Assembly (NCBI GenBank): GCA_026874595.1 | Contig: CM049312.1 | Location: 63,704,929 to 63,768,928, forward strand | Direction: 5' to 3' | DNA length: 64,000 nucleotides | From: Sipunculus nudus | Lineage: Eukaryota; Annelida; Sipuncula; Golfingiida; Sipunculidae | Shown: piece by piece, positions 4,372-64,000 of the stretch | Position numbering within the stretch: position 1 is the stretch's first letter | Layout of the letters: every line of letters starts with the position of its first letter | Translations under genes and position numbers: made by a program | Notes under the pieces: generated by a model | What the model saw: only the letters and a program-made list of their open reading frames with translations | Database searches by the model: none | What the model was told of the DNA's origin: nothing

Positions 4372-6986
4372 ATGGGAACGGATCTGGATCTGGATGCTGC
4401 AGTGAAGACCAATTTTACTTCAATACAGGATCACGGGAATGAAGTTCATGGTCGCGGTAAGACGTTGCATCGTGTACCCTGGTGGCGAAGGAAGCTTGCG
4501 GCGTTGTATCTTGTTAGGATCATGCAGGTAAGCTTATACAACATGGAAGACACTCAAGTGTTACGTTTTGATGGTAATCAGTGAATGAGTCAGAAATACA
4601 GATATATATCTTTATATATATCAATATATATCTTTATGTTTTATTTACAACAAAAGTATACTTGCTGGGATTAAATCTGATTTTACAATGCTTCGCTATA
4701 GTAGCCCTCGTCTTGTTTTACATTTTTGTGGTAACCAATCTAATAAGGATATTTTGTTTTCTTATTGGTTGCCTTTAATAATACAATGAAGTACATAAAA
4801 AATACTTTTGAGGAAGATAAATATCAAAGTTATTGCTTATATTTTATATTAGACTTCATTAAATTGTTACACTATAACATCTTGCTCCTACAATTTTGAC
4901 AGTAGTGACTGTGCATTTCTCTTTGAAGTGGGCAATGAAATAGCCCATGTATTTAGTACCATTGAAAGCTAAAATAAGACCAAAATATAGCACTTTGTAT
5001 TACAATTCACTATGAAACTGAAATCCATCAGCATCTTCTACATGCAAAACTAAACAGACTCAATACTAGCAGAAGAAAAAAAGAGAAAGACAAAAAAACA
5101 GAGGTACAAGCCTGCATGAGTTAAAATAAATAGACTTTAAAATTATCATTTATAAGAATAACTGCCGTGTAAAACAAAACGGTACTCATAAAAAGGCCTC
5201 ATAGATTTTTCAAAGTAATTTTTGGGGAATTGCGCAAATTGTATCACGTGTAACAGTGTTTGATATTTGTTTAAAGGGCGTTATGAGTTCCGTCACTGGG
5301 CCAACACTACTCGACATGATAGAATATCTCGGGACGGAAATGACGTCATTGTCTTTGGTGATTTCACTGGGAGTGGCAGGAATAAGCGTCGGGAATATTT
5401 TGTGTGGTCTGTTCTCCAGACGAATTCAACCAGAGCTGTACCTTGCTCTGAACATGTGTAGTTGGCGGTTTCATGGCTGTGAGTCCTTGGGGGAGGAGCC
5501 TATTATATTACGGCGTGTTTTACATGCTGCAGTTTATCGCTATTGGGTTCTTTGGACCGAGTAAGTATATCCCAATCAACATGCTTCGACTCTGCTATAA
5601 ACCCAATCTCAGAGAACGTTCGAAGAATGAATCCACACCAAAGTCAGATTTAAATTTGCGTCCCTTAAGGACTGATATAACGTTTCCAATATTTTCCCAT
5701 TTCCAAGTTTTATTATTTCATGTTTCAACTTACAGTGCACGATCGGTTTCAAAAGGTAATGGACAACTGATGCCTTCACATCAAAAGGCAATATTATGGT
5801 CCTCATAGCTTTATATGAGATATTTTCTTTGTGGTTATTATAAGAGCAGACTTAGAATATACCAAGTTGACTAACCAACAAACGTCTTCAATGAGTAATA
5901 ATAATAATAATAATAATAATGAGAATAATAATAAAAATTATAATTATTATTATAAGAAATCTTTAATTATAATTTATTATACAGCTGCCTGTGCATATCC
6001 CCTGCACCTTCCCCGGAACGACAAGCGGAAGAACCCTGCGGAACAGGCGGTTCATGCGGCCTGGTCGGTTGGTGCGTTCATAGGTCCCCTCATAGCAGGG
6101 GGTTTCCTATCGCCTAAGATCGTACACGATGGTTCAAACATAACAGAAGTTTACAACAATGCGTCAATCAAAACCACGGTATCATATGAAATAACTCCAG
6201 GCAGCAACTTATCTGGCTTTGACACAAATACCACTAAAAGGCAAATGGTACCGTTTGCTTTCCTGACCTGTGTTGGCCTGGCTATACTTTCAACCGTACC
6301 TATTTGGATCGTTTTTGTGGTTGGACCTAGAACTGAAAGTCAAAAGGAAGAAAAAAGACAATATGGCGAGAAACTGTTGATCAACCTAAAAGCTTTAAGG
6401 TAGTCTTTGTGTGCATATGGTATGGACTGTATTTGTGCACTGAATTCATACCGGCGGTTTATATTGCAGCTTTTGTTGTAAAGCACTTGGAATGGGACAA
6501 AGTTAAGGGTGCTTTGGTAACGTCTACCATGTATGGAGCACATGGTCTTGGCAGAATAGTAAATGTGTTAGTGTCTGCCGTACTTACTCCAACAAAGATG
6601 GTGACCAGCAGCATGGGTCTTACTCTTTTAGCTTATATCATTCTTGTGTTCCTACATACTGTTCACCCGGCTTTTGTATGGCTCAGTATGGCTCTAGCAG
6701 GTTCGATGATGTCCGGATTTTACGCTTCAGGCATAGTATTTTTATCAGGGCACATACATGTCAGAGACCCGGAAGTATCTTTTATTACGTTTGGAACAGC
6801 TGCTAACTTTTTTACCGCTTATATGATTAAGACTTACAGTCTCCTGTGGGTCCTTTATAACATGCTCGGGGCGGTGGTTGCGGCAGTTATGGTTTTTTTT
6901 TGTTGTGGGTAGTCTTGCGCAGGTACAGACCTAAACTTTACTATGTAGATGTAAATATCGAACCCGAGTCTAATCCAATCAATTAA
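4372..6986 (+). pseudogene. A1: MFSD4/NaGLT1-like transporter pseudogene (three exons)
   Basis: Exons are 4372-4527, 5277-5560 and 5985-6986 with GT-AG introns of 749 and 424 bp. Exon 1 is intact (starts MGTDLDLDAAVK, ends VRIMQ before gtaagc). Exon 2 begins GVMSSVTGPTLLDM, the family signature in TM1. Compared with intact A3, exon 2 lacks 2 bp after NMC (about 5459), exon 3 lacks 1 bp in the TM6-TM7 loop (about 6383), 15 nt are lost in frame in TM11 (near 6800), and a third frameshift lies in a T run near 6893 just before the C-terminus. The pieces otherwise align to A3 end to end, so this is a young pseudogene of a 12-TM sugar-type transporter. The loop holding NIT, NAS, NLS and NTT N-glycosylation sequons is still readable. 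Confidence 0.85.
5896..5930 (+). repeat. (TAA)n microsatellite in A1 intron 2
   Basis: About eight perfect TAA units followed by imperfect ones, lying 55-90 bp before the exon 3 acceptor. Shorter AT-rich arrays sit at the same place in A3 and A4, so the array is an old feature of intron 2. Confidence 0.85.
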
Positions 6987-7750
6987 TGGTTCTACATCAT
7001 TATGCGTTGGAGAATAAATTGGAACTGACATGTGAGATGGTCAAGAAAAATTTGAACGTGAATACATTGTTAAGTTAATTGTGCATGTTGACATGAAATA
7101 TATTTGAAAAGACTTATGTACTCCCAGAAAGCTTATATGTAAACTCTATTTGTATGTGCCAATATTGTTTGTCAATATTCCATTGTCTTTAATTCGTATT
7201 TCAATGGGACCAAGGGGAAGTAAAATGCATGTCAATAACTAGTTTGGTTATTTAACTGAAACATAAAAACAAGTTTTTCTTCTCTTCATATCTTGTGTAA
7301 CTTGAAAACACTACATGTATTAATGATTTTAACTGGAAACATTTATCAGTATAGATCAATATTTCATAAAGAGATGGAAATCCAGGTGTAAGAAAGCAAG
7401 AAATGCACTCATTAAAACAAGGAGAGTTGGGATTTGCAACATATATGAGCTAAAGGTTATAATGGGGAAATTTTTTAGTTATGTTATATCAGCTTTACTT
7501 TATGAGGTTGAAACATCCATGCAGATTGCGATTAAACGCATTTATACACAACTGCGTAAGAGTTATATGGCCTCACTAAATATCAAACGAAAAATATATA
7601 TGATGAAAAACTAGGACAAGACAAACAAGAGTAAAGATATAAGCAATTTCAACGGGCATGGATATTACATATATTGTTCATCGCCCTGACTTCGACAGAT
7701 AACATTTGAAAGGCGAGAGGGAAAATAATGGCAATCTGGGGAAGAATGCC

Positions 7751-7809
<59 letters not shown>

Positions 7810-8297
7810 AACTATGAATGCTTTCTTGAAGGATGGCTGTGTGGAATAAAACAGGAAGCAGAGGTGCGTCGAGATGCGGCCAAGGAATTATCCAAGGGGG
7901 ATAAGTGTAGGTTAAACCTATAAAATGTCCCCTACGCGAGATGGGATTGAGTCCAAGTAATTGAAAACATATTTTAGTTCTTCACTATAATCCGCACTTT
8001 CATTGTAAGACAAACAAAGAAGAAGATACGAAATCATTGATTTATATATTTTAAATCATTTTTAAGTGTAACTCATATAAAAGCAACGGCCGTTGTCCTG
8101 TGATTACTCGGGAAGAAAGATGCATCATGTTTGCTGTAAACTAAAGATTAAAATGCTTGGTTATGACAAATATATATCTCTACGAAATTGCAATGTCAGA
8201 ATTCAAAGAAGGACACTTCAAATATAGAATGTAATTAAGCCCTGTGGGAAGCAAGCATTATTGGTTTCACTGGATTTTCTATGTGTGTGTCTCCAAT
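6987..8297. other. 3' flank of A1, duplicated in other units
   Basis: No gene. It matches the 3' flanks of A3 (30916-32145), A4 (38878-40520) and A5 (57926-59100), including the (GA)n tract. A1 has lost the AATAAA seen after A3: here the matching site reads 'gtaaaatgcatg'. Confidence 0.6.
7755..7807 (+). repeat. (GA)n microsatellite
   Basis: About 26 near-perfect AG units. Homologous tracts occur at the same distance behind A4 (40209-40263) and A5 (58707-58745). Behind A3 only a degraded purine stretch is left near 31640-31672. Confidence 0.95.
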
Positions 8298-8925
8298 ATA
8301 TAAAAATGATAATAATATATAGTATTTATATAGCGCCAATTCTCCGATGGTCGGACTCGCAGCACAATTCAAACAGAGATACACATACCGACATACAATT
8401 TCATGGAAATCTACTCCCTGTGCCTGACCTAGAAAATGCATATTAATTACCAAAAAGCCGAAAGAGATACGTTTTTAAATTAGTTTTAAATGATACAGTA
8501 GTTGGAAATTTTCTAAGTGTAATGGGAAATGAATTCCAAACTTTTGGGGCAATAAAACGGAAGGAACGTTCACCGATTTTACATTGCAGTTTGGTACTTC
8601 AAGAAGATTTCCGCCAGCCCAGCGCAACGTACGCAAAAGCCGATAAGTTATTCTTTTTTTTAGTCAAATATGATGGAAGTGAGTCATCAAAACGGCGGTA
8701 TACAAAATCAGCAATTTTGTATTGTATGCGGTACTTGACGGGAAGCCAATGTAGCTGTTTGAGCAGCGAGGTGACGTGGCCGGTTTTACGCTTCTTAAGA
8801 ATGAGACGCGCAGCATTATTCTGGACCATCTGTAGCCGCGAGACTTGCTCTGCAGGTAACCCAGTAAGAACTGAATTGAAGTAATCCAGACGAGATATTA
8901 CTGTGGCGCAATTGAGCCGACAGCA
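8298..8925 (-). mobile_element. CR1-like LINE, 5'-truncated 3' end
   Basis: The minus-strand translation gives ISRLDYFNSVLTGLPAEQV, then QNNAARLILKKRK, KQLHWLPVKYRIQYKIA and a KIGERSFRFIAPKVWNSFP stretch. This is the C-terminal end of a CR1/Jockey-type reverse transcriptase, readable almost without a break. The 3' UTR ends in 'ggcgctatataaatact' plus an AT-rich tail at the low-coordinate side. The flanks are continuous with each other in the A3 3' flank at about 32145, which lacks the element, so this is an insertion specific to unit 1 or lost elsewhere. Confidence 0.8.
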
Positions 8926-9874
8926 CGCATTAATTGAGAGGAAACGGCATCACAGGTGTTATTGAAATTTGACATTTGTCTCAGGAAAGTAAAATACCCC
9001 AATTGACTAATAGCACATTCCCCAATAGCACATTTGTTCTCACTTGGACGTAGCATGTGGCGGTATCGCTAACGTTGGAGTGCGAGTCCTCACGTGACAG
9101 AGGAAAATAAACCGTGAAATATGCCAGTAAATCAACATGCATCATGGTGGTTATTGATTGTGCTTATAGTCGAGTGCAGCAGTATCACAATGTCCAACGG
9201 TGTTGTTCTAAGATATTTTTTTAATATAGAAAACCCAGACATAATACAGATTAATTAACATTCCCGGACGACACCTTTCACCAATCTGTTCCTAGCAGAG
9301 TTTGCTCCCTATTATCGGCCTTTTAAAAAGTATTTATATTTATTAGAAAACGTTGATTTACTGAAGTTGAATCTGAAAGTTAGGAATCATAAATTGTTTT
9401 TAATAATTAATACAGGTGAGACTTTTTCGTTTTGCTGCAACACAGCATGATATTCCTACCCTCCTTACACCGAAAGAAACATGCAATTGTTTGCAGACAA
9501 TTTAATGCCTTATTGATTATTAAAGTACCTGATGGCTGCATTTTTATATTTTACTATTTCCGTTTATAATCCATTTAACTAGTTTCCTAATATTACATTC
9601 CATTTTAACCCATTTCAGGTTTCTTCTCTTGAACATAGAGCAAAACAAAACCCAGCAAAAATAATACCAAATCCTTAACAATACATTATTTTCCCGCTAA
9701 CACAGTCACTGCGGGTTCAATTGTACATGTTAGGTTTGTTTGCTTTTTAAACAGAAATATTACGTTAACAAAATCCCATCCGGGATGGCGACAGTGTTAG
9801 TATTTTAACGAATAATATACCATATTGTGTTTATTATGTGACTTATTTAAAATCAGAGGCATATATACGTTTTC
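8926..9874. other. A-to-B intergenic flank
   Basis: No gene. Parts match 20050-20617 and 59020-60620, for example the passage around 'tttgctgcaacac' and 'gcagacaatttaatgcc'. It is part of the duplicated unit. Confidence 0.5.
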
Positions 9875-10278
9875 TTTTCCTACAAAGCATTCATCGGTCT
9901 AGCCTCATTATATATATGTGATCTTCTTGTTCATTATATGCCATTAAGATCCCTGCGTTCTTCGAAGAAAAGGCTTGTTGGCAACATTTAAGGCTAGCAT
10001 TGTTACATACGGGACGAAATGTTTCAGGATAGTTGCTCCGGCTCTGTGGAACGGTTTAACAGAAATCGTGAAACATGCCGATTATTTAGTACTTTTAGAT
10101 CGCGTGTAAAAACGCATTTATTTGTATCATACTATATTGAATCTCAATTCACGATTTTTTGTCATTCTTACTTTTCATACTTTTACGTTTACTATAGCTT
10201 ATATGCTTTTAATTGTATAGAGCTTTAGCAAAGGATTTTATCTTGGATTAAGCGGTATATAAATATTATCAATTATAA

Positions 10279-10328
<50 letters not shown>

Positions 10329-10350
10329 TTGATAATAATAATAATGATAA
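9875..10350 (+). mobile_element. CR1-like LINE 3' end with (TAA)n tail, unit 1 copy
   Basis: The plus-strand translation starts YKAFIGLASLYICDLLVHYM and continues with LRSSKKRLVGN, pieces of ALWNGLTEIVKHAD and a RSRVKTHLFVSYY-like end, in more than one frame. This is the C-terminus of a CR1-like reverse transcriptase. The 3' end 'ttaagcggtatataaatatt' runs into a (TAA)n tail. The same insertion, at the same flank, is found in unit 2 (20618-20940), while the matching place before B5 (about 60620) has no insertion. Confidence 0.75.
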
Positions 10351-10527
10351 TTTATTTTCAGAGTCAATCACCTTTGATAACATGGAAATATTGGGTATTC
10401 AAAGCAGATAGAAAAATACATTTTCGATAAAATGAATCAATCGTGGATTGTTATTCGCTGAGAAATATATCGTTTATAAAAAATTTACTCTAATAAGCAA
10501 AATTTATAAACAATGTAGGGATTATTC

Positions 10528-12104
10528 ATTGCTCTCTGCATTGGAGAGCCTACTGCCCTGATGCCATGAGCTGGTCGTTTAACAATATAAAGACTTTTCC
10601 TTGCCTTTAGAATTGGGTTGTTGAATTGCTTAAGTGAGATGCAAAAGCATTGTTTTAAGTATGACAACCATTCTTTCCATTGTGACAACCATTGTAATAT
10701 GGAACAAATATGAGACATACAGTTGATTTACTTGATATTAGGTGATGTTTTTCTTATCTTGTAATATGCTCGGTATATTTTTATATTTTCAAATTTTTAT
10801 TAAAATAGCTTTTATTATTTTTCTGTAATTAATTTTGTTTTAGGCGGGCGAAATACAGTTAAATTGATATAATTGTACTGCAATACTTCTGTTCATATTT
10901 TTTAAAAGTGAGTATTCGGATACATAATTAAAACCGTATTGGATTGTTTTGTTTGATATGAACGATAATGATGATCCTTGACATATAATGGAAACAAATA
11001 TGATTCATACGGCTGCATTCATTCATAAAAATCGGGCTGTAGCTGCTTTTCAAGGTAACATCTATACATCTGTGCTAATTAATTACTCAGATAATTATTT
11101 TAATCAATATATAAAATATAATGACTCTATGATAACATCTTATAACATTCTAAAAAAATGATTATTAACATTTTTCTTCTGCAAAAAAAAAAAAATAAAG
11201 TCATTTTCGTTTGACAATCTTATAACATTTCTGGGATTGCAGTGTTCATGGCGTATCCGATAGATGTGATGAGAAGAAAGAGAATGCAGTATTCCGCAGA
11301 GCAACAGTCCATTCATCATGATCCACCGGGGCGTTCACTGGGCCATTCATTACAGGTCTTTTCGTATCGTCCAAGGGCACATTACCGGGGGAATCAGGGG
11401 CTAAAATCAGACAATTACAGAAGGCATGTACCACGGCTAATAGTTACTTAAATATGAAAGCAAATGCATCGACCGATCTTCATTTAACATCACATTACTC
11501 GAATGTTACAACATCTGATGAGGAACCAATGGTGTCTTACGTGTATCTTACCACTCGATTCACCATGATGGCATCAGCAAAACCAGCGCTCACAATATTC
11601 TGAGTCGGCCAATAAAGCAAACCTCGGAAGCAAAACGTGTGAAGCAGGGAAAAAATCACGACGTCAGGAATGGCAGGAATGTTATTTTACTGACTTTGGT
11701 GTTGTTTTTATATATATGGGGTGAGCATCTTCCTCCTTTGTTTCATGCCAGCTTTCCTTGTAACACACCATAGCTGGAGTGGATATAATGGCTCTGTCAT
11801 CTCGTCCATTTCATTTGGGGACCTCAGTCTAGAGAGATTAATTGGTGTGCCGATATCGGCAAAAACTGAGCTCAGGGGAATGATCACCATTAGTCTGACC
11901 TTAACTTTTCTAGCATAACTGATGCTCCTCCTGCTTCATCCAAATGATCATATGGTCGTGTTGGTCAGTATTGCGCTTACCGGTGTAGGAATGTCCTGTT
12001 TCTCTGTTGCTGGTATATTACAGCGTAGCGCCTTTACCGGGTATGTGTTTGATATGTATTCTCCCCGATGGCTATTGTATATCATTCTTGGCGCAACCAG
12101 TTGA
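10528..12104 (+). pseudogene. B1: B-type MFSD4/NaGLT1-like transporter pseudogene
   Basis: Two exons remain. A scrap of exon 2 at about 10528-10645 aligns with the B5 passage encoding IGAATAIMPWAGPLTVYGFF and the end GIGLFEP. Exon 3 runs from 11243 (acceptor 'gggattgcag') to 12104. Exon 3 aligns along its length with B5 (VFMAYP, RDPAEQ, the glycosylated loop, TM7-TM12) but has several frameshifts, a stop near the end, and a deletion of roughly 75-80 bp covering the TM10-TM11 linker after 'gctggtatatta'. Exon 1 and most of exon 2 are gone; the space upstream holds a CR1 tail. After the last codons the sequence changes into the intron 2 sequence of a C-type gene. Confidence 0.8.
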
Positions 12105-13115
12105 AGTATATTAATTTATTTAACCTTGTATTTGATCAGGAAATTATGTCTTTTCCTCTGACATCAGAGAATCTAGGACCAGTGTACTGACTGTTAGAGC
12201 GTCCTTACATCCTTCAGCGAAGATCACGCTTTAAGGCTCCTTAAGGATGCAAATATTTTCGTCAATACTGACGCCTCATGGTCCACAAGTACGCTCTCCC
12301 TTGACATAAACGAGAGCAATCGTTAGCTTTTCAAGTATACGTTCTAATAACACCTAACTTAAGCGAGAAAATTCCCATTTTACTCAGCATTTTAGAAAAT
12401 TCCTCCGCATGTTTGTTGACTTTTTGACCGCATGGATACATGCATGGCTTGGACGGCTTACTGGACGCAGACAACTTATAGGCGATATAGGAAATGACTG
12501 ATTTCTTTAGAGGAGGAGTTTCAGTTTGGGTTGTGAGTTTACATGTATTCTTTTGTGTTAACCCATCGTTAGTAACCTAATGTAAAGAATATGGGCTGTT
12601 TACCACGATATAAATGCAACATATTGGGAGACTACTGCGATACATTCCTCGAAATAACATGTATCACGACTCAAGTTAGGCCTACCAGCTCAATTATAAG
12701 TGCCTACTAAGTCGGGTTGTCCCAATCCCACGCCGAGCGCTCTGTAGGTTTAATGGTGAACTGTGCCCAACTATCGTCTATCTCTGAAAAACGAGCGGTT
12801 GTTTAGGGTATAATCGGTGTTATGACCCAGCAATGGGGATGACACACACCCAGAATCCTGAGGAATGGCACTACGCGCCTGGTTGATGCCAGGATTATTA
12901 CGTTTAAGCCCATGTCCCGTATTCTGCGGATGTTGTAAACAAACAAGAAAATGCAGGCCGTTACCTCCACCAAATAAGTCTAAATAGATTGGTGACACAA
13001 ATAGATTGGTGAAGGTGTCACCAGAGAGGTATGAGGTTTCATTATTTTTTTGTGTTGTTGCAATTATAAGCAAGTATAGTATAACCAGATGATTGTTTCC
13101 TTAATCCGAAGTATA
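12105..13115. other. Remnant of C-type intron 2 joined to the B1 3' end
   Basis: From about 12145 this matches 43195-44040, which is intron 2 of the B4/C4 gene. No coding sequence is seen. The join lies within a shared 'cctctgacat', so the C1 exons 1 and 2 were probably removed by a deletion that fused B1 to C1 intron 2. About 150 bp at 12963-13113 has no counterpart in the other copy. Confidence 0.6.
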
Positions 13116-15839: not shown

Positions 15840-16814
15840 TAGTAATGATAAATTTGCATCTCCTGCGGGAGGATAAGCGGAATAATCTTGCCGAACAGGC
15901 GACGCACGCGGCCTGGTCAATCGGTGCGTTCATAGGTCATAGAGGGTTTTCTTTTTTGTTTTTGCCACAAAGCCAGGGTGAAGGTTCAACCATGACAGAA
16001 ATCATCAAAAATACAACAATGCAGCAAACGCTTTATACGAAGATGACTTCAATGTACAACACTTTTGCCTTTAAAACTGGTACTACTAAAAAAAAAGCAA
16101 ATGGTACCATATGCATTCCTGGCTTGTGGATGCTTGGCATTCGTTTTAACCATTTCGGTTTGGGTAATTTTATTGGTCGGTCCTAAAATCAGAAGAAAGA
16201 GCAGAAAACAATATGGCAAGACAGTGACAAGCAACCACTGGTCTTGGTGTGTTTTTGGTTTGGACTGTATTTGCGCACAGAAATCCTACCGGCCCTCTAT
16301 ATATCAACTTTTGCCATGAAGAACTAGGGTTAGGACAAATACAGGGGTCCTGGTAACGTCTACTGTGTTTGTTGCACATAGTCTTGGCAGAATACTTAGC
16401 GTTTTAGTGTTTCATGTAATTATTCCAACAAAGATGGTTACAGGCAGCATTGGTTTTACTCCTTTGGTATATATTATTCTTGTATCATTACATACTGTGC
16501 ATCCGGCTTTCGTATGGTTCAGTATTGCTCTTGCAGGATCGGTCATGTCAGGGTTTTACGCGTCTCCGATAGTATGGGTAGCATGACACATGCATGTTAC
16601 AAATACTGAGAAATCATGTATGTCATTTGGTTCAGCGACTTTTTCACCGCTTATATGTTTGAAAAAATAAACATATCTCTGAGGGACTTTATATCATGCT
16701 CGGTGCAGAGATATGGTTAATTCTTTGTTGTGCATTGTCTTATGCTGGTTTAAACCTAAACCCTACAACCACGACTCTCTGAAAGAGTATAACTCGAGAC
16801 CAGTTAATAAATGA
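15840..16814 (+). pseudogene. C1: C-type transporter pseudogene, last exon only
   Basis: The exon starts inside the conserved HLLREDKRNNLAEQATHAAW stretch, whose homologue in C4 is preceded by an acceptor that is lost here. It then reads WSIGAFIG, a deletion in TM5, KKKQMVPYAFLACGCLAFVL (TM6), pieces of the TM7 region, and ILSVLVFHVIIPTKMV to AGSVMSGFYASPIVWVA (TM8-TM10). TM11 and TM12 are scrambled by a deletion near 16637. The stop codon is at 16812-16814. There are several frameshifts. It is closest to C4 (45382-46413). Exons 1 and 2 are absent. Confidence 0.8.
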
Positions 16815-18439: not shown

Positions 18440-18463
18440 TAATGTAAATTGCAGCGTGACATA
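18440..18463 (+). promoter_or_regulatory. Conserved block upstream of A-type exon 1 (A2)
   Basis: Same 'gcagcgtgacataacacaat' block as before A1, lying 141 bp before the A2 start codon. Function unknown. Confidence 0.3.
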
Positions 18464-18603
18464 ACACAATAAATAACTATAACACGGTTGGAAAGGTATT
18501 TAAACTATACGCAATTGGGTACACGTATTTAGAACAAAGTTAACCTTCGTGTGGAACGACTGAATTTTAGTCTGGTAGAATTTCATGGTTAAAATTATTA
18601 ATA

Positions 18604-48064: not shown

Positions 48065-48090
48065 TTATGTAAATTGCAGCGTTACATGAT
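48065..48090 (+). promoter_or_regulatory. Conserved block upstream of A5 exon 1 (degraded)
   Basis: 'ttatgtaaattgcagcgtta' plus 'catgat', 126 bp before the A5 start codon, with substitutions relative to A1-A3. The gene is dead. Confidence 0.25.
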
Positions 48091-51600: not shown

Positions 51601-52307
51601 CTCCATTTAATTTCCAATAGCCTTTACCCTTTTTTTTCTTTATCTGATGGGTGTTCCAAATCCAAAATTACTGCGCAATGATCTGAATGAATGTATGGTT
51701 CAATATATGTATCTTTAACTGTATCTTGTAACGTTTGTGAATTCCACCAATAATCTAATCTAGAGCAAATATTACCATTCTTTTGTCTCCATGTATAACG
51801 TTTCTTTGACGGGTATTTGATTCTAAAAATATCAGTTAATGATAAATAATCTATTGTTTTTTTAAAGTTTTCTACTACTGTTTTCTTAATATCTTTTGTT
51901 CCTCCTTTTTTATCCAAAATCCCATCAAAAACTATATTAAAATCTCCTCCTACTAAGACATTGTCTGTATTTTCTATATGCTGGTGTATTAAGTTATAGA
52001 GTCTAATGTAAAATCTATTTTGTTCATTTGTCATATTTGGTGCATAAATGTTTATTTACTTATATTCTATTCCCTTTTTAATGAAAATAGCACATTCTCT
52101 GCTAGATGAGTTTGCATGACTATAAAAAGCTTTCCCATTCCATTCATTATTCCACTGATTTTCTATTTCTCTAGTTCCATGTGTTTCCTGTAAGAACAGT
52201 ATATCAGCCCCTTGCAATTTGGCCCATCTAAATACAGATCTTCTCTTTTTGGGGTTACCTAACCCCCTAACATTTAAGCTTATTAATCTGAATGACACAA
52301 ATAACAC
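48607..52307 (-). pseudogene. LINE ORF2: endonuclease-reverse transcriptase, broken
   Basis: Reading from 52307, the apurinic endonuclease shows LISLNVRGLG, FLQETH, GGDFNIV and SDHCAVI. After it, a spacer leads to the RT with KSPGNDGISAEFY, SIDFEKAFDSLEW, RGVRQGDPLSPYLF, QNADDTVGIV and GLKINYEKCE. The C-terminus has a zinc-binding CX2CX8HX4C (CTFCKREQEQLTHLFWSC). This order is that of L1/Tx1-clade ORF2, and about 1230 codons is the usual length. There are three breaks: TAA at 52056-52058, a frame change in an A run near 51632 and one in a T run near 49917. ORF2 copies and inserts the element's RNA by target-primed reverse transcription in functional relatives. Confidence 0.85.
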
Positions 52308-54179
52308 AAATATTACTCTTTAACCATAAATACTTTACTGGGAGATAAACAAGTGTTTTGAGTTTGTATATTAATAAATTTGTTTGCATGTGCAAATGGA
52401 AAAATAAACTAATTAAAAAAGTAATCTTGTTGGTTTTAGTATCTTTGTAACATTTTAATCTAATGTTTTTTCTTAAATAAGCCCAACAAGTTGTAGCCTT
52501 TAGTTTACTTCCTTGTACTAAGCTTAGTAAGCTAAAGGTTACATGGATCATCTTGATCCATCCTAAACCTGAGGAAAACCTTATTCTCTCAGGTCTATTC
52601 ATCGTCATGTCAGCAAAAGGACTTCTGACAGGCTTGCCCCTTTCTTATATTTATTTTTTAACAACTAACCCAAATTTAATCTATATCTTAGTCAATATTT
52701 TCTTTCTTCTAGTATTCTGATTTTGTTTTAAATTATTATTTTTTTTTATAACTAATCTCGAATTTACAAATTAATGTATCTAGCTTTTCCTGGTGTATAA
52801 ATATCTTAATTCTAATTCATATATAACCATTATTATTTGATTTCATTTGATTGACAGCTTTAGTATTACTTAGGTGACTGTTTTCACCTTAACAAATTAA
52901 TATATCCATATATTTCTATGATATTAATATGTATCAAAGTGCCTATTTCATTAAAAAAAATAACTTATTCAAAATAGGTAACTCTCTGTGTGTTACACTT
53001 GATATTTTAGGAAAAAATAAGACTCATATCACCTCAGATGTCTTCCTATGATGCCAACATACCCAAAAACCTTAATGAATAATAGTACAAACTAAAGTCT
53101 GAAAGATAAATAAATAAATAAATATATAAAATAAAAGTTAAGTCTAATAACTAAACATATATAATGCTTAATAATTATCAACATTGTTCTACCCCAGTGA
53201 ACAACTTGCATGTTTAGTATTATCATTTACCTATATATTTCCACAATACATTGCCCCAATTCATATCAATCTTCTCTTATACAATGTAAAAAAAAAAAAA
53301 AAAGTAAATTAATCTGATGACTGGTCTAATTTTCTAAGTATGTATCCATAAATCTATATAAAGAGTAAACACTCCTGCTTCCAATACATACAGTTATCAC
53401 TCAACAAGTATAATCATTATAATTCAATCAATGTAATATATGCCTGTTAATATTTGATCAATAAAATTCCTCACTGACCCCATTAATATCAATGTCTTTC
53501 TGTGATTAAACAAAGTTATACGAAATTAATAAAAAGAAAATCCCTGATTCAATGTTTAAAATATTAAATTAGGACCCTTTGATATCTGTCAGGCCAAAAC
53601 ATACAGAAATAGTCCTTCCTTTTAAGATGACTGGACAAAAACCAACATTGTTCTTTCCACAAATTCCTCAAAATGTCTATATTTCTGACAATTTTCCTGA
53701 ATGTATTTAAAAAATATGGACAATATCTTGGTACAATAAGAATCACAATCTTTCTGTGAAACAATTATACTGAAAGACCTTTACTTATCACAGTTGCTGA
53801 TTAGGGTTAAAGGTAAGGAAAATTACATGATATTCAATATCATATATTGCTAAAATTCTTCCAACAGAGTTGACCAACATACATATTTAATATTAGTAAA
53901 GTGACTAACCTCATATTTAAGAAACTGTTTGTATCTATAATATTTGTGCGTTATAACCCAGCTAATTTAAAAGAGGAAGGAAGATATTCTTATTAAATCT
54001 AAATACATGTATCCCTCAGTAGCTTTGAATATTTGCACAAAAGTATTCATTTAATTTAGGTAAGCTAACTTGGAGCTCTCACCGACAAATTACTAACACT
54101 GCTCTCTACAGAAAGTTCTCCTAAATTTCTATATTTATGACAATTTTTCTGAATGCATTTATATATATATAAAAATAAG

Positions 54180-54934
54180 TGAACCATGGGTCATGACATG
54201 TTGACAATAAGTCTTTGCCCAGGCAGCTAATCGAGATAATGTTAGTGGCATCATTCGTCATGATCATCAAATTTGATGACAATCCAGCCAGCCTTTCCCT
54301 TAGGAACCTGGCTATTTGTGTGGATCTTGCATTATTTTCAGGGTGCTAATACATACCCCAAAATTCTGATAATACAGGTTACAATGACCCATTTTCAGGT
54401 TTCTGGGGAGAACTTATGAGGAACTCTCAGGGTGTAAAGTAAGAAGATTCTAGGTTCAATAGTAATGATTTGTGCTCTACTTTGGTATCAATTTTCCAAT
54501 TATTTTGGGAGGGGGGAGGGTGCTTCTTAGCCCCATAGCTCAGAGAATACGGATAACAGAGACCAAATTCCAAGTTTCCAAGTAAATTATTCTGGACCTC
54601 TCTGAATTTAAAGTAAGAAGATTCTAGGTCCAATTGTCATGATTTGTGTCCTGCTTTGGTATCAAATTTCAGTTAAGCTGGGGTCGCTTTTAAGCCCCAT
54701 AGCTCAGAGAATATGGGTTACAGAGACCTGATTTCAGGTTTCCAAAGACATTTTTTACAAACCTCCCTGGATATCAAGTAAGATGATTTTAGAACAAACA
54801 GTTACATTTTGTGACTTGTTTACATACACTTTTTTTGCGCCCTGTTAACGGACAGATGGCCGGACGAAGAACAAAGAGTGATCGCTATAGCTCCAATGAC
54901 TAAACAGTCATCTGAGCAAAAAAAAAAAAAATAG
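54180..54934. mobile_element. Nested repeat insertion with about 175-bp internal repeats
   Basis: Inside the second 0.5-kb unit lies a less AT-rich block. It contains three diverged copies of a 175-bp unit (landmarks 'aagtaagaagattctaggt' at about 54437 and 54610, and 'ccccatagctcagagaata' at about 54531 and 54696). It ends with 'gtgatcgctatagctcc', 'tcatctgagc' and an A run of 14. The A tail suggests a SINE- or LINE-like tail; the family is not identified. Confidence 0.5.
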
Positions 54935-55702
54935 GTTACAACGTAATAAAACAAGTATAACCATCATTCTGTGATGAGAATATACTGAAAAACCTATAAA
55001 TATCACAATTGTTGATTAAGGTTCAGAACAAGGAAGAAATGCTTGTTATTCAGTATAATATACTCATAAAATACTCGTTAAACATACTTCCAACAATATT
55101 CACAAAACATACACAATAATATTGATAAGTGACTAACCTGATATTCAATAGTGTCAGTATATTTAGTATTTGTGTAATACGGCTATGCAAATTTAAGAAA
55201 AAATACTTTAATATCTCAGTATATACATCACATAATAGCTCTGGATATTTGCACAAAAACATCAGGCGAAATGTCAACATTATTCTCTACAGTATTTCTT
55301 ACAGTATTACTGATTTGTATCCCCTTCAGACAAAATAACTACATTATTCTCTATCTTAAGTATTTCAAAATGCTATACTTGCGTCATTTTTCTTGAATAT
55401 ATTTAAAAAATAAATAAATATATAAATACACAAAATTAAAAAAAAATAAATAAATAAAATAAAATAAATAAATATAAAAAAAAATTTTAAAAAAAATTTA
55501 AAAAAATTTGGAGGCTTTGCCATGGTACGATGAGTATTACTATCTTTCTATAATATGACAACATTGAAAATCCTTCCACTATCACAATTACTAATTAAAG
55601 TTAAGAATAAGGAAGAAAATGCTAGTTATTCATTATTACATTATACTTAAAAATACCAACCAAGTTGACAATCATTCCTTTTTAATATCAATAATGTGTC
55701 TT

Positions 55703-55723
55703 ATTATATACATATATATATAT

Positions 55724-55772
<49 letters not shown>

Positions 55773-55780
55773 CATATACA
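55703..55780 (+). repeat. (TA)n/(CATA)n microsatellite
   Basis: Alternating tatata and cataca stretches of about 78 bp in the LINE spacer. Confidence 0.9.
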
Positions 55781-56516
55781 GATTTTTAATATCAGTCTAC
55801 CTTGGGTAAATACCCAAATGTACCCTAATTTAACAGACTTTTACAGTACTCCCAAAATATGTATATGCTTTTGACAAATATCGACAAGTAATTACCTGTC
55901 CCTTATCTTTTCATTCTACTGCCTTGATGATTGTTAAACAATTCATAATTTAATTTTTTTTATATAATGAATTTTACCATTATCTATAGACTGTATCAAA
56001 CCCAATCTTTGCATATTTATACTTATGGCTTGAAAATGTGTTTATTTAAAATTATAGTCAAAAAAAAAAAAAATCGACATTATTTACCTAATGTTCAATG
56101 CAACGATAATTCCTAAACATTTAACAAGGCATACCCATATAGCATATCTGTATTTGAAATTCAATGTTGATTATAACATCGTTAAGTAAAGTAAATCTAT
56201 TGAAAAAAAAACCAAAAAAAAAAACCAGGCATTTTCTTCTAAAATATATATATGACAATTTCTGTATATAAAATAACTTACATCTGTTTCTGTAGTTCAT
56301 CTCATCTATTGAACAGAGTCTATAGTATCTAATTTTACTATCAAAAAAGTCTTTTAAACCTCCAACCCGGCGATCCGTCCTCTTGGTTCTCCTAATGTTT
56401 ATTTACTATCCTTGACCTTGCTCTTCGTGCATCTACGGCAATGGTCGCTCATCTCCGTTTCTCAGCCCTGACACAGTGATTTCTTAGTATTCCTGAAGGT
56501 GGCGCTGGTGCTCTAG

Positions 56517-56718
56517 CCAACCGTGGTTGAGCGACTCAAATCCTTTTGCACAAGCGAATGAGTTGATATTCGGGTTACGTAATCAGTGTTCACCTGGGTT
56601 TAGTTTTGTTAGCTGTCCAACCGTGATTGAGCGACTCAAATCTTTTTGCACAGGCGAATGAGTTGAATATTCGGGTTACGTAGTCAGTGTTCACCTGGGT
56701 TTGGTTTTGTTAGCTGTC
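56517..56718 (+). repeat. Tandem duplication of about 100 bp at the ORF1 3' end
   Basis: Units 56517-56616 and 56617-56718 both start 'ccaaccgtg' and end 'ttttgttagctgt', with a few differences. The unit next to ORF1 supplies its last codons (GQLTKPNPGEH and stop). Confidence 0.9.
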
Positions 56719-57640
56719 CGTTGACATACAATTCTCCCCGCCAGAAACGTACTTTGTTACCTCTTTCAAATTCCATTTTCATTTGTTCTTTCACCTGTTC
56801 CTTGCGTTTAAAGTCTTGTTTTGTGAGATCTTCCACAACTCTGACTGTCTGCATGTTTTTGTTTTTACTACCCCATGTAACTTTATTTCTGTCCGTTCTT
56901 GAAAAAAATCTCACGATAATATGTCTCGGTTTCTCACCTTTTTTCCCGGTTCTGTGGGCTGTTTCAATTCTACTTATTATGTCCGTACTATCAATTTCTG
57001 CCTCGCCTTCCGATTGTAATAAACTGTTTTCTCCGATTACTTTTGCTGCAATATCCAAACAGTTTTCCGACCTTGCACCTTCCGGCACCCCAATAATTCG
57101 AGCATTCCATTCTCTGCTTAATCTTTCTTGTTTGTTCATTTCATCGTTCAGACGTTGTTCTAATTCTTCAATTTTTTCTCTCTGTCCATGTTTTCAGTCT
57201 GTAACTTTTGAACTTGTTTCTCTAGCGATTTAATCCTCCTGTGGTCGTTTTCTTTGTGTGTCATAATAGTATCAATGTTGTCACTCACTGTTAAAGTTAA
57301 GGTTTCGAGCTCGTCCACTTTTTTCTTTATTGTCTCATTTTCTTTCTGCAGGTTTTTTAATATTTTGAAGAAAATCTTTGTGGATTTTTGTTAGCTTCTC
57401 TTCAATTTTTTCTTGTGAGTCTTTTACAAGTTTTTTCATATCTTTCATTGCATTTTCCACTAGTAATCTTGTACTCACTTGTTCTTCACTTGTTTGGGCC
57501 GCCATGTTTGTTTGTAGAATGTCCTCCGTGTCGTCTGTCACTTCTTTTCCGTCCTGACCTTGTTTTACTTCAATCAATTTTTCAATATTTCCGGTGACTG
57601 GCTGGTCTTTGGTACTCTTTGTCCTTCCTTTTGGAGGCAT
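56684..57640 (-). pseudogene. LINE ORF1: L1-type RNA-binding protein, two frameshifts
   Basis: It starts MPPKGRTKSTKDQP at 57640 and has a charged coiled-coil part (KDMKKLVKDSQEKIEEKLTK, later KSLEKQVQKLQTEN). It then has the RRM-like domain of L1 ORF1 proteins (ARIIGVPEGARSENCLDIAA, IETAHRTGKKGEKPRHIIVR) and the C-terminal domain (KQDFKRKEQVKEQMK, FWRGELYVNGQLTKP). Frame changes lie near 57365 and 57186, both next to A-rich runs. Functional relatives form trimers on the element RNA. The combined length of about 318 codons is normal. Confidence 0.8.
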
Positions 57641-57925
57641 TTTCTTAAAGTTCTATTTTTTTTGGCTGAGTTTTATGATTTTTGCTTCGGGCACTGCCTG
57701 GACCGTCCTCACTAGCTCTCCATGACACCGGAAGTCCCTTTAATACCGCATATATGCTTCAAAAGTACAGTCAGTCCTCTTGGAGGTCCTTTATAAGATG
57801 GTGGGGCGGCGGTTGCTGAGGTAATGGTGTTTTCTTTGTTGTGGGTAGTCTTGCGCCGGTACAGACATAAACCTTACAGTGAAGATGTAATTATCGAAAC
57901 TGATTCTATTCCAAAAAATAAATGA

Positions 57926-58703
57926 TTCTACATAATTTTGCCGTGGAGATAAAATAAGATGTGAAAAAGCATGTAGTGTCAAATGGTCAATTTAAATTTG
58001 AAAACTAAATATATATAGTTATGTTTATTGTGCATGTTGACATAAAATATATCAGCAAAAGACTTATGTACTCCCAAAATGCTTATATGGAAACTCTTTC
58101 GGTATGTGACGCTGTTGTTTGTTTATATCGGATTGTCTTTAGTTCGTGTTTTTATGTGACCAAGAGGAAAAATAAATGTATGAATATAAGTTTTTTTTAT
58201 TTTGTTATTTAACTGAAACACGAAAACACGTCTTTTCTTCTCTTTATAACTGGTGTACTTGCAAACACAACATGTAAAATGTGTAAAAGTAGAAAGATCA
58301 ACCGATCATCAACAAACAGATCAATAACGAATAAAGATGAAAGTAAGAAATGCACTCATTAAAGCAAGGAGAGATGTGAGTTGCAACTTAAATGAACTTA
58401 ATATTGTAATGAAGATCTTATATAGTAATGTTATATCAGCTTAACTATATGAGGCCGAAACATCCATGAAGAACGAGATTAAATTCATTTATTACAATTG
58501 CACATTAGAAGTCGGCATGTGATATGGCCTAGAGAAATATCAAACGAAAACAAATGTGATAAAAAAACTGGAACAAACTGAAAAATGAAAAGAAATAAGC
58601 ATTTTTAATGGGAATGGATGTTACATATATTGCTCATACCGCTGACATGAACATACGTAGGTAGAAAGACGAGAGGATAACCAAAGGCAATCTAGAAAAG
58701 AAC

Positions 58704-58750
<47 letters not shown>

Positions 58751-60839
58751 GGAGAGAGAATATCTCGTACAGTTTTCTTGAAGGACGAATGGAGGAAAAT
58801 AAGAAACGGAGGGTCGTGGAGAAGCGACCGACGAGGGAAGTTGGCATGTCGAAACTTGTTGGACTTATTCCCGTCTGTGTTTGCATCATGTTTAATGTAA
58901 CGTGAATATTAAAATGTTTGCTTACGACAAGTATATACCTCTACGAAATAGGAATATCCAGAATCTGGAGATGGACATTTAAAATATCGAATGTTAATGA
59001 ACCCTGTAAGCGTTATTATTTTACTTGATTCGGTATGTGTTGGTTACTGTAAAATTCCCTATGCGACTAAATTTCGTGTAAACCCAAGTGTAATAACCGC
59101 GAAATGAGAATTTTGTGATAGTCATGACCTGAAATCCAGTGGACAATGATACCACACCAAGTGCTGTTTCCCTGAAATGTGTTAGCAAATCAACATGCAG
59201 CATGTGGGGCATGGTATGTTCGTTTTGTATTAGTCTAGGGTTGTTTCGTCCCAAGATGCTTTATACCGATTTCCTCGGGTCCTCTCGATCCACAGCTTGA
59301 GTTCGGCCCTACTTTGAAAATCGTGTATGGTCCCAAAAAGGGTAATTCTTTCGAATCTTATAATGATTTTTTATCCGGTGTCAACATAAAATATTTAACT
59401 TTCATTGTCTTTGGATGTTTTCTTGAAACTTCTGAAAGGTTGTAACGCCAATGTAATCCTCAAATGCCCAACATATCCATAATTTATCAAAAAGCCATGT
59501 TTACATAGAGATGATGTCACCATGATTGTATATAGTGTCCCAGTCTTTTGCATTTGAATTTAGACTGTGATTTACACGGGACTTGCTTTGTGACTTCGCT
59601 CCGATATTATCACTGTTGGCCCAGCGAATGCGGTGGTTCATAGGGGATCGTGCAGGGTATAAGTCGATCAACGTCCGCTTCCAACACGTCCTTAAATATG
59701 TCATGTTTAAATCACGGCGGGCTTAAAAATGATCTTAAGGGGATAATGTTTCATTTGAATAACCAGGTAAGAACGCAGTAAAGTTGCTAGAAAGACCCAT
59801 TTAGTTACAAAGACAAAAACGGATGTATTATGACGTGTATATTTAGCATTTTTAAAAGTTTTTTTGGTACCTTATACAAATTCCCCATCACACGGCCACA
59901 GTATACAGGTCAGGGCCACGACTTTGGTGTTTTCACAGTTTTGGACCCCGCAACAAAGAGGAGGGCTGCAATAATGTTCAATGGTGTTGTTCTACGATAT
60001 TTTAAATATAGAAATCTTAGGAATAAAACAGGTCAATTAACATTATAGGACATCATTTCTCAACAAGATCGTCAGCGCAGGGTCTGCTCCATCATATCGG
60101 ACTTTTATTTTATATTTGTATTTATTTAAAAAACTGTGATTTACTACAGTTAAATCTGAAATGTAGGTATCAGAAATTGATTCACTTTTTAGTACAAGTA
60201 AGATTTGATACGTTTTTGCATTTCGGCATGATATCCCTACCCTTCTAACTGCGAAAGAAATATTCAATATTTTGCAGATAAATAATTTTATTTTGTCGAT
60301 TATAAAATGACCTGAAGGCTGTATATTTCTTTTTAATTAATTTCCTTTTATTATCCAGTTAATTAGAGTTCTTCATCATATTACCGTCCGTATTAACCAT
60401 TTGTTTTGATCATCTCTTCAACATACCCTAGTACAAATAAAACTTTCTGCTTAAAAATACACTATATTTATGGTAACTTCGGGATCCAATATGCGTGTTT
60501 GGTGAGTGGTCATACCGATATATTACACTACCAAAATCCAAACCCGGCCAGTGTCAGTATTTCATATTAATATTCCACATTATTTAATTTAATGTTTATG
60601 TTGAACAACAGGCACATATAAACACATATAGTTCAGAAAAAGACAGTCTCCTGAATGACCTGGAAATATTGGTCATTCAGAAGCAGATCAAATCAAAAAT
60701 GCTTATTGGATACAATGAATCCATCGTGGATTGGTATTCGCTGAGAAATATACCGTTTATAAAAGTTTTACTCTAATAAACAAGCCCTATACACAATGTC
60801 CAGGTCATTGAATCCCATAACTAAAACATTGGTATAGTC
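57926..60839. other. A5 3' flank and A-to-B flank
   Basis: No gene. 57926-59100 matches the flanks of A1 and A3; 59900-60800 matches 9200-9870 and 10350-10500. The CR1 insertion seen in units 1 and 2 is absent: at about 60620-60640 the sequence runs from 'aggcacatataaacac' straight to 'agacagtctcctgaatga'. Confidence 0.55.
58707..58745 (+). repeat. (GA)n microsatellite
   Basis: About 19 AG units, followed by an imperfect purine stretch. It corresponds to those after A1 and A4. Confidence 0.95.
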
Positions 60840-61243
60840 TTAATACAATGCAGATTCAATACAAAATGTTTTTTTTTGGTATTGATGTAACCGTTATTCA
60901 TATCGAAGTATTATATCCAGAGTGATAAAATTATCTAGCATAACAAGGTGTAAAATCTGAATAAACCAGAGTGGCATGTGTGTGGCTGTGTAATAGATGA
61001 TGAAATACAGACTCATGAATACCTATGCATTTGAATGAGAAGTGCACTGACAGTATGTAAAAGAAACGAGCGTGAGAACGTGTGAATGAATATTTAAATT
61101 ATGTGGAAAAGCGAGTTGGAGTGCAAACTGGCATCACCTGTATGTAAAATGCATGTATCACAAAACATGAAACCACTAATTTCTGTTTCAAAACTCCCGA
61201 AAAACCCTGTCTGGATAGGACATTATACCAAACAGAAAACACA

Positions 61244-64000
61244 ATGTCAAGACACCTAGAAGAAAGTACCAAAGAAGAACGGGTTGGTAACGAAATTCCA
61301 CCTTTCGTGGAAGAGCTTCCTCTTGATGAATGTCACTGGAATAGCAAAAGGCCTCTCTCCTGGTGGAAGTGGAAGCTAATGTCGCTCTATATTTCCATGT
61401 TTATGCTGGTATGTATTTTATTTTATACACACCATTTGATTAAATTTTTATTAGATTTATATTCTATATAAATATAATAGAAAAAAATTATATAATTTAT
61501 ATTATATTTATATACAGTTATCCAAGTGTATATAACTTTTTCTTAAAATGTTTGTTTATCATTTTATTAATGCTTATTGTAGCCCAAGAACGTGTTCTAT
61601 ATAAGCTATTATGTATCACCACGCAATCGTTTAAGATTTGTGTTACATTGATTGCGTATATGGCGAAGTGCATGAAAAATATCTAATTTCTGTAAGATTA
61701 TCTCGAACAAATGATGGAGAATTTATTCAAACAGAATAACAGAAAAAAACCCTTGCATCCGAAAGTTGAGGAATTTGAGAATTAGAGTATTAAGAGTATT
61801 AAGGGAACCATAAAGGTTAGCTCACCTCAGAAACCATGATAATATTTTAATATTCTCCATGTTCAAAGACCCACCTATGAAAATTTAATGAAACCGTTGA
61901 GCTTTGGAAATATATGTAGACACAGGCAGGCTGACGCACAAATTTTTCTGTATCACATATATGCACAAAATACACATCTAGATAGACAGACAGAAGGATG
62001 AATGTTTATAATCATATGAAAACAACAAACAATTGACGTGTATGTTGCATAACGTCAATCTCTGACTCGTGTAATTTATGTGGTTTGACAGGGGTTTGTC
62101 ATGTCCCTCCATGGCCCAGCCCTATTAGATATGACGGAGTACCTTAATACGGATGTAAAAACTATCTCCATGGTAACGTCCATAGGCGCTGCTGGAGGAT
62201 TTGTTGGTGTAATATTAAGTGGTTTGCTTTCAAGAAAGGTTTACCCTGAGCTTCATTTATTGGCAAATGTTCTCTGGATTGGAGCTGCTACCGCGATAAT
62301 GCCATGGGCAGGACCTTTGACAGTATACGGATTTTTCTACACTCTCTTGTCATTTGGAATTGGGTTGTTTGAACCGCGTAGGTGAAATGTACACGGCTTT
62401 CTTTTGTACAAGACCAAACTTAACAAGGTCCTTATAAATAAGTAATTTTAATATTGGACAAAGCTAGGAAGTTGAATTTACCTGATAACAAGCGATGTTT
62501 TTTTTGTCTTTAAAGTGTTAGGTATAAATTTATAATTTTTTTGTCAGAACTCTAAATATTCACAAACTTATTTGGTTTAAAGATATTCCCCCAGTAAAAA
62601 ATGCAGTAAAATTAATATAAATTTATTGTTATGTTTATTTTAATATTCAAACAAGTGTGTATTTCGACACATTATCACAACTGGGTTTGATAGTTTTTTT
62701 TTCAAATAAACGATAACTATGAAGCTTGACACATAATTAAAAAGTATTAAATATCATATAGTTGCCTTCATTCTTTACAATCAGGCTTCAGCATGATTTT
62801 AAGGTTATATCTATACACCTGTGCTAATTAATTTTGCACACAATTATTGTGATCAATATATGACCTTATGAAACCATCTTTCAATATTCTAAAAAAAACA
62901 ATAGTTACTTGTCCACACTTTCCAGCAACAAACAGAAGATAAAAGAAAAAGTCATTTCATTTTTCCAACCTTTTGTGACTACGTTCACTCCCTGATATTT
63001 TCTTTTCTGGGATTGCAGTGTTCATGGCGTATCCACTGCAAGTGATGAGAAGAAGCAAAATGCGGGACCCCGCAGAGCAAGCAGTCCACGCATCATGGTC
63101 TGCCGGGGCGTTCACTGGGCCATTCATTACAGGTCTTTTCTTATCGTCTAATGATACATTATCTGAAAAAATTGAGGGCAAAAATGAGACAATAACGGAA
63201 GGCATGTATACAAGGGCTAATACTTACTTATATATTAAAGCAAATACATCGACCGATCTTAATTTAACATTACATTACTCGAATACTACAACATCTAATG
63301 AGGAACTAATGGTGCCTTATGCATATCTAACCAGTGGATTCGCCATGATAGTGTCAGCAATACCACCGCTAATAATACTCTTAATCGGCCCCAGAACATC
63401 AAAGCAAATTGTGGAAGCAAGTCGTGTAAAGCAGGAACATAAATCACGAATTCATATAGCAGTCATGTTATTTTACTCACTTTGGTGTTGTTTGTATATA
63501 TGGTGTGAACACCTTCCTGCGTTGTTCATGCCAGCTTTCGTTGTAACACACCTTGGCTGGAGTAGATATGAAGGTGCTCTCATCTCGTCTACTTTATTTG
63601 GGGCCCACACTCTCGGCAGATTGATAAGTGTGCCGATATCAGCAAAACTGAGCTCAGGGAGAATGATCACCAGTAGTTTGACCTTGACCTTTCTAGCATA
63701 CCTGATGCTCCTCCTGCTCCATCCAATGGATCCTATGGTTGTGTGGGTCAGTATTGCGCTTGCTGGGGTTGGCATGTCCTGTTTCTATGGTGCTGGTATA
63801 TTATGGATTTCAACATTTATTGATGTCACTAATTTTGAAGCTTCCATATTCGCATTTGGAGCAGCGGTCGGGACTTCAACAGGTAGCGCCTTTACAGGGT
63901 ACATGTTTGAAATGTATTCTCCTTTGTGGCTTTTGCATATCATACTTGGTGCCACCATTTTAAGTATATTAATTTATATAACCTTGTATTTGATCAGGAA
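61244..64000 (+). CDS. B5: apparently intact B-type MFSD4/NaGLT1-like transporter (3' end outside window)
   Basis: Exons 61244-61408, 62092-62377 and 63019 to beyond 64000 have GT-AG introns of 683 and 641 bp in phases 0 and 1, like A3. The reading frame is open through all three to the window edge (about 477 codons). The start is the first ATG after an in-frame TAA (MSRHLEESTKEERVGNEIPP). Exon 1 ends with KLMSLYISMFML (TM1 entry). Exon 2 holds SLHGPALLDMTEYL, the family signature, and TM2-TM4. Exon 3 holds RDPAEQAVHASWSAGAFTGP (TM5), a loop with NET, NTS, NLT and NTT sequons, TM6, and TM7-TM12 (GWSRYEGALISS, GAHTLGRLISVP). It differs from A3 by many residues, so the two types are old. It is the only undamaged B copy here. 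Substrate unknown. Confidence 0.85.

Follow-up and report, generated by a model that had tools for sequence, protein, structure and literature searches.

A tandem array of A-B-C transporter blocks, most of them decayed, in a 64,000-nucleotide window

The stretch of DNA analyzed here (the window, 64,000 nucleotides) contains a tandem array of decayed transporter blocks, which our analysis confirmed as real. Three paralogous carrier genes, A, B and C, each with a three-exon structure, recur in the cyclic order A-B-C across five units, and every A, B and C copy lies on the plus strand. Only one A (A3) and one B (B5) remain readable, as the preliminary description of this DNA had claimed, and the remaining copies are broken. 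We consider it highly probable (about 0.88) that these genes, carriers of the major facilitator superfamily (MFS), spread by duplication of whole blocks that then decayed, in a eukaryotic and probably invertebrate genome.

Layout of the array

We mapped the copies by comparing the window with itself and by a six-frame profile scan for exons 1 to 3. Self-comparison placed 38,569 of the 64,000 window bases in repeat pairs. Sixty of the 61 pairs of at least 80 bp were in direct orientation, a tally that takes in repeats inside a LINE, a retroelement-like pair and two tandem duplications; the sole inverted pair (34852-34952 against 43949-43846) lies outside the carrier exons. Chance similarity was rejected, since each of 10 block-shuffled versions of the window yielded 0 pairs of at least 80 bp. 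The profile scan reported matches above a score of 4, and observed scores ran from 5.0 to 656, with a top score of 1.0 in five shuffles. The profiles were built from pieces of A1, A2, A3, B5 and C4, so these five match by construction; the matches to A4, A5, B1-B4, C1, C3 and two further paralogues, D and E, are not of that kind.

The window holds five A copies, five B copies, three C copies with coding sequence and a fourth, C0, present only as a flank. An earlier count had given five A, five B and four C. The genes, their order and their strand recur together with duplicated flanks: the A-B flank (A1, A3, A5) and the C-A flank return at the same relative places between units, and introns are duplicated too, so the outcome in which only exons are similar fails. 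Self-comparison and the profile scan bear out the order and strand first described, and self-comparison also the head-to-tail repetition of multi-gene blocks with their flanks. Unit 2 shows no C and carries remnants of D and E instead. The array had been said to start at 4372, which is too far right: the 3' flank of C0 (3628-4101, plus strand, no exons in the window) is 77.5-78.2% identical to the flanks of C1, C3 and C4 and is evidence of another unit to the left of A1.

Each unit has private, kilobase-scale deletions, some of which yield B/C chimeras. All A copies described here are on the plus strand. A1 (4372-8306) retains exons 1, 2 and 3 and its 3' flank and is dead, with frameshifts in exons 2 and 3. 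A2 (18438-20071) has exon 1 and the start of intron 1 fused into exon 3, the equivalent of A1 4776-6108 being absent. The A3 copy extends over 28292-32321 by self-comparison and profile scan, and its readable gene (28476-30915; exons 28476-28631, 29220-29505 and 29885-30915, including the stop) has a product of 490 aa. A4 (37523-40518) consists of intron 2, an exon 3 with frameshifts and stops, and the 3' flank; exons 1 and 2 are absent. A5 is interrupted by an L1/Tx1-like LINE (48346-57737, minus strand, edges approximate) with RVT_1 (7e-39), zf-RVT, endonuclease and weak Transposase_22 domains. Its upstream sequence and exon 1 lie at 48055-48345, the end of exon 3 and the 3' flank lie at 57738-59040, and where the LINE sits A5 has lost about 2.3 kb.

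The B copies, likewise on the plus strand, are eroded in different ways. B1 (9189-12142) keeps its 5' flank, the 3' part of exon 2, intron 2 and an exon 3 with stops and frameshifts, having neither exon 1 nor about 60% of exon 2. B2 (20135-23098) has the same exon 1-exon 2 deletion, and the end of its exon 3 sits within a 234-bp tandem duplication (22630-23098). B3 (32355-32648) is exon 2 only and directly abuts the exon-3 tail of C3. B4 (41334-42429) is a 5' part, with a broken exon 1 and intron 1, fused to C4 inside intron 1. B5 (59973-64000) runs up to the window edge; its exons (61244-61408, 62092-62377 and 63019 to beyond 64000) are readable as far as seen and encode 477 aa within the window. 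B5 is predicted to end a few codons beyond 64000, B2 pointing to a stop two codons past the last complete codon visible.

Among the C copies, again on the plus strand, C1 (12152-18299) has intron 2, a dead exon 3 (about 15840-16808) and the 3' flank, with exons 1 and 2 absent; its junction with B1 falls at, or adjoins, the B1 stop codon. C3 is reduced to an exon-3 tail (32655-32943), and after a retroelement-like stretch its 3' flank resumes (36342-37502, over its whole length 67-68% identical to the flanks of C1 and C4). C4 (42686-47917) comprises the end of intron 1, exon 2, intron 2, an exon 3 with stops and frameshifts, and the 3' flank.

In unit 2, D is represented by an exon-3 start (23680-23991) and an exon 2 (25912-26154) on the plus strand (23680-26154), with exon 1 weakly matched around 25234 (tblastn E 0.003). 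E is an exon-2 remnant on the minus strand (27142-27411; score 48.2, iE 3.4e-16). Both look like older paralogues. Separately, a GC-rich retroelement-like pair occupies 517-3133 and 34113-35914 and could reflect either one insertion or separate insertions. The pair was rejected as proof of a sister relationship between C0-A1 and C3-A4, because it lies 495 bp from the shared C flank in one case and 1131 bp in the other and aligns patchily.

Divergence and history of the units

In an exon-3 tree without C3, each gene class formed its own group across units (B at 100, C at 99, and the split of A from B+C at 100). With C3 included, support for the C group fell to 70, and a tree of the short tail placed C3 with B at 65. 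The expected three groups are hence recovered, with the short C3 copy as the weak point. Identities were 76.0-78.2% among the four C flanks and 74.3-77.3% among the four A 3' flanks, and trees of both are nearly star-like at 22-26% divergence. This shape suggests a burst of duplication. Upstream of A, A1 and A2 are 82.4-83.8% identical, with support of 96 for A1+A2 against A3+A5, and the 5' regions of B1 and B2 are 82.8% identical against 72% to B5. By these values units 1 and 2 are closer to each other and form a pair of later date. Trees of exon 3 alone mislead, because A1 and A2 are more alike in exon 3 than in their flanks.

Two other accounts of the array were weighed against this evidence. 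Uncollapsed haplotypes or misjoined contigs would make it an artefact of assembly, yet in the non-coding stretches that were compared the copies diverge by about 16-28%, and they carry private indels, stops and kilobase deletions, whereas haplotypes are expected to be far closer. Haplotype duplication was rejected on this divergence, and we regard an artefact of any such kind as extremely improbable. The genes might instead have duplicated one by one, A from A and B from B, the order then arising from the points of insertion. The histories of A, B and C do differ between some trees, as this account would have it, but the recurrence of the A-B and C-A flanks at matching places and a cyclic order kept over five units make it very improbable. 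We infer that block duplication proceeded by unequal crossing-over.

Constraint and shared lesions

Of the 38 changes unique to A3 relative to A1, 21 were third-position changes (p 0.0044, uncorrected for the 8 tests made), and the readable A3 shows constraint. For A1, dN/dS with A3 was 0.26, but the third-position share was 19/41 against A3 (p 0.057) and 15/40 against A4, and constraint on A1 is only weakly shown. There was no significant third-position excess in A2 (12/48), A4 (17/55), C1 (24/88), B1 (29/73), B2 (26/68) or C4 (16/41). For B1-B5 and B2-B5, dN/dS was 0.56 and 0.58, little below the 0.68 of B1-B2. Could some of the dead copies still act, for example as exon sources or as regulatory pseudogene transcripts? 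Open stretches kept in exon 3 (225 codons in A2, 154 codons in A4) would be in keeping with this, but A2 and A4, like C1, B1 and B2, are among the copies without a third-position excess, and we judge continued function very improbable.

One deletion of about 1.47 kb has the same junction in B1 and B2, which makes it probable that B was copied in a broken state. The two copies share 0 of their exon-3 indels (9 in B1, 7 in B2), which implies that copying followed soon after the deletion or that conversion spread the deletion itself; one exon-3 codon is a stop in both, through different bases. A1 and A2, for their part, share a 1-bp frameshift, and it falls inside a 400-bp tract, picked after seeing the identity profile, that holds 11/400 differences against 100/567 elsewhere (Fisher p 2e-14). 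Per 100 columns, identity is 96-99% in 6108-6507 and 89-94% in 6508-6907, falls to 83% and then 72% from 6908 to 7104, and is 78-84% upstream, in 4166-4776.

Both lesions may simply have been inherited at one block duplication, with no gene conversion, and they are indeed common to exactly the two units that are closest by their flanks. The uneven identity of A1 and A2 speaks against this, and since third positions of the tract also differ rarely (4/127), selection does not explain its identity; we find joint inheritance doubtful. Also tentative is the reading that exchange among neighboring dead copies carries inactivation with it, so that the death of blocks is partly contagious, B being copied broken along with its block and the A frameshift passing between units 1 and 2 by conversion. 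We hold equally tentatively, and jointly with that reading, that a deletion with both ends in first introns joined exon 1 of B to exons 2-3 of C in unit 4. The first intron is of phase 0 in A3 and B5, and the B4-C4 chimera could once have been in frame.

In the reading that we prefer, block duplication followed by decay, the ancestral block would have comprised the three paralogues A-B-C, perhaps with D and E as older members lying between B and C. The burst would have come from repeated unequal (non-allelic homologous) exchange among the blocks, and in a later exchange a block may have been copied after its B had broken. Non-reciprocal exchange may have homogenized A1 and A2 over 400 bp, the frameshift included, a step of which we are less sure than of the duplication and decay. 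Deletions and transposons would then, under relaxed selection, have eroded every copy except a single A and a single B. Several points go beyond the preliminary description: the burst with its later unit pair, a broken B that was probably copied, the A1/A2 tract that looks like conversion, the chimeras of B and C, and the minus-strand E.

Carrier family and comparison with known systems

A3 and B5 belong to the MFS: both exceed the curated cut-off (33.4) of Pfam MFS_1 (PF07690), A3 with 51.5 bits (E 9.2e-14) and B5 with 61.0 bits (E 1.2e-16). Five of the six window pieces tested matched MFS_1, two of them above the cut-off. The A3 and B5 protein models are 42% identical, and live products would be expected to act as membrane carriers of the MFS kind. 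Solved structures gave no match to an A3/B5 profile at E 0.01, a separate search of them gave one weak match only (avidin, E 0.089), and structure prediction for A3 exon 3 alone reached pLDDT 46 and pTM 0.31. The array genes may be of the NaGLT1/MFSD4 (SLC60) kind, a name that is not established here, since the general MFS_1 family alone matched and the structure search with the A3/B5 profile was empty.

It had also been said that such carriers expand by tandem duplication in many invertebrates. This is partly supported: SLC60 expansion is reported in arachnids (PMC7487162), in a paper where the word "tandem" does not occur. Literature searches for these carriers, under NaGLT1, under sodium-dependent glucose transporter 1 and under MFSD4, in combination with terms for tandem copies or expansion, returned nothing relevant. 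Among the matches listed for oysters, titles and the beginnings of abstracts named no arrays, and the five block-duplication terms sought were absent from a rodent Mup paper (PMC3477143).

The array compactly records how members of a carrier family arose and died, with an apparent burst, probable copying of a broken block, conversion-like exchange between dead copies, and loss, ending in this window with one readable A and one readable B. Given comparison with a sister species, it could help to date duplication relative to inactivation.

Block copies at the goat beta-globin locus were reportedly described by Townes in 1984, a study cited in PMC3879965. In goats and other Caprinae, according to the available part of a recent account, a four-gene set was triplicated, a block including a pseudogene stands in tandem copies, as here, and certain lineages have since lost blocks (PMC12929664). 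Several genes work in the two or three blocks of that locus; the present array differs in its roughly five units, 22-26% flank divergence, nearly complete death of copies, large deletions and chimeras. The arachnid SLC60 (MFSD4/NaGLT1) case is likewise a lineage-specific invertebrate expansion, and may concern the same carrier family, but its account, in the portion available, gives family sizes only and is silent on block arrays and pseudogenes (PMC7487162). The A1/A2 tract resembles interlocus gene conversion, in which, in the part of the source consulted, a short tract of high identity lies between neighboring paralogues with lower identity outside it (PMC3924818); unlike that system, the tract here joins two broken copies and holds their common frameshift. 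We conclude that the array is a well-preserved instance of the known birth and death of gene families, by a textbook mechanism.

An ordered array of three carrier paralogues

Comparing the window with itself, we found 61 repeat pairs of at least 80 bp, 60 in the same orientation, that cover 38,569 bases; the count takes in LINE-internal repeats, a retroelement-like pair and two tandem duplications. No such pair appeared in any of ten block shuffles of the window. Family exons were located by a six-frame scan with one profile for each of exons 1 to 3 (scores above 4 printed). Scores ran from 5.0 to 656, with a best of 1.0 in five shuffles; the window pieces of A1, A2, A3, B5 and C4 used to build the profiles match by construction. 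With A, B and C the paralogues and the number the unit, the order from left to right is a flank-only C remnant (C0); A1 B1 C1; A2 B2 and remnants of two further paralogues, D and E; A3 B3 C3; A4 B4 C4; A5 B5. Hence, the repeated A-B-C array proposed in the preliminary description is real. Introns and flanks, not exons alone, are common to different units, so the flanks were duplicated with the exons, as also claimed there.

In an exon-3 tree of nine sequences, with C3 left out, support was 100 for B, 99 for C and 100 for the split of A from B and C, so the copies do form the expected three groups. The weak point is C3: when it was added (ten sequences), support for C was 70, and in a short tail alignment of ten sequences C3 grouped with B at 65.

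Readable genes and constraint

GT/AG sites were tried in short stretches picked around the expected positions; of these, one combination each was open in A3 (490 aa) and in B5 (477 aa as far as the window edge). Intron 1 is phase 0 and exon 2 has 286 bases in each. The two are 42% identical, and both exceed the Pfam MFS_1 cut-off. Judged by sequence, the array genes are MFS carriers, which, by likeness, may belong to MFSD4/NaGLT1 (SLC60).

Pairwise dN/dS (NG86) was 0.26 for A1-A3, 0.40 for A3-A4, 0.57 for A1-A4, 0.45 for A2-A3, 0.70 for A2-A4, 0.68 for A1-A2 and B1-B2, 0.56 for B1-B5 and C1-C4, and 0.58 for B2-B5. Third positions held 21 of 38 changes unique to A3 against A1 (p 0.0044, uncorrected, eight tests). 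Changes unique to A1 fell there in 19 of 41 cases when A3 was the comparison (p 0.057) and in 15 of 40 when it was A4. By these ratios and counts A3 is probably under constraint, and A1 perhaps was until late. No third-position excess was significant in A2, A4, B1, B2, C1 or C4, which give no sign of constraint.

Decay, junctions and inserted elements

In A1 coordinates, the part equivalent to 4776-6108 is missing from A2, that to 4101-5692 from A4 and that to about 4496-6807 from A5. The place in A5 is now occupied by a minus-strand L1/Tx1-like LINE (48346-57737; ORF2 in two frames) that interrupts exon 1; no target-site duplication was seen by eye. At the end of its ORF1 is a 101-bp tandem duplication (56517-56719, 94% alike). 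Together with the gene structure, this LINE suggests animal DNA, most probably that of an invertebrate.

B1 passes into C1 intron 2 at or adjoining the B1 stop codon; the sequence that elsewhere lies beyond the B coding end can be seen in B2. The C3 exon-3 tail is joined directly to B3 exon 2. B4 and C4 meet within intron 1, B exon 1 being followed by C exons 2 and 3. Both parts of this chimera are now broken, but it may once have been in frame, because intron 1 is phase 0 in A3 and B5. A 234-bp tandem duplication carrying the B2 exon-3 end (22630-23098, 99.6% alike) is a very recent event.

Where unit 2 should have C lies D (23680-26154, plus strand), in which an exon 1/2 pair stands to the right of the start of exon 3; the window self-comparison listed no DNA-level match of D to A, B or C. 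E (27142-27411) is an exon-2 remnant on the minus strand, opposite to the array; its sole match at the DNA level, with A3 exon 2, is weak and inverted (59.9%). A GC-rich retroelement-like pair (517-3133 and 34113-35914) contains zinc-knuckle-like and RT-like fragments by eye, and the ORFs tried there had no Pfam match. Nor did the RT-like minus-strand reading, also by eye, of an insert in the A1 3' flank (8306-8928) that A3 lacks. A 17-bp minisatellite (4.4 copies) lies at 40732-40806.

Relative timing and origin of the units

One stretch, approximately B5 60799-62268, is missing from both B1 and B2, with the junction at one place in both; it comprises exon 1, intron 1 and some 60% of exon 2. 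Since the lost parts are present in B5, B4 (exon 1) and B3 (exon 2), the loss predates the B1-B2 split or spread between the two. None of the exon-3 indels (9 in B1, 7 in B2) is shared, so the deletion was still young at that point. A one-base frameshift common to A1 and A2 lies inside a 400-base tract, picked after the identity profile was seen, with 11/400 differences versus 100/567 upstream (p 2e-14). Third-position differences in the tract are low too (4/127), which rules out selection as the cause of the likeness. Gene conversion is the likeliest reading.

The 3' flanks of C (C0, C1, C3, C4) are 76-78% alike and those of A (A1, A3, A4, A5) 74-77%, with short inner branches (support 70 and 49). 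These similar identities and short branches suggest that the units so sampled arose close together in time. Upstream DNA of A1 and A2 is 82-84% alike (support 96 for A1 and A2 against A3 and A5), and 5' DNA of B1 is 82.8% alike to B2 versus 72% to B5, which makes units 1 and 2 a later pair.

From unit order, orientation and flank sharing, rather than from junctions, we infer that unequal exchange between blocks made the array, the mechanism put forward in the preliminary description. The closest precedent found is the goat beta-globin locus, in which a four-gene set is triplicated (PMC12929664).
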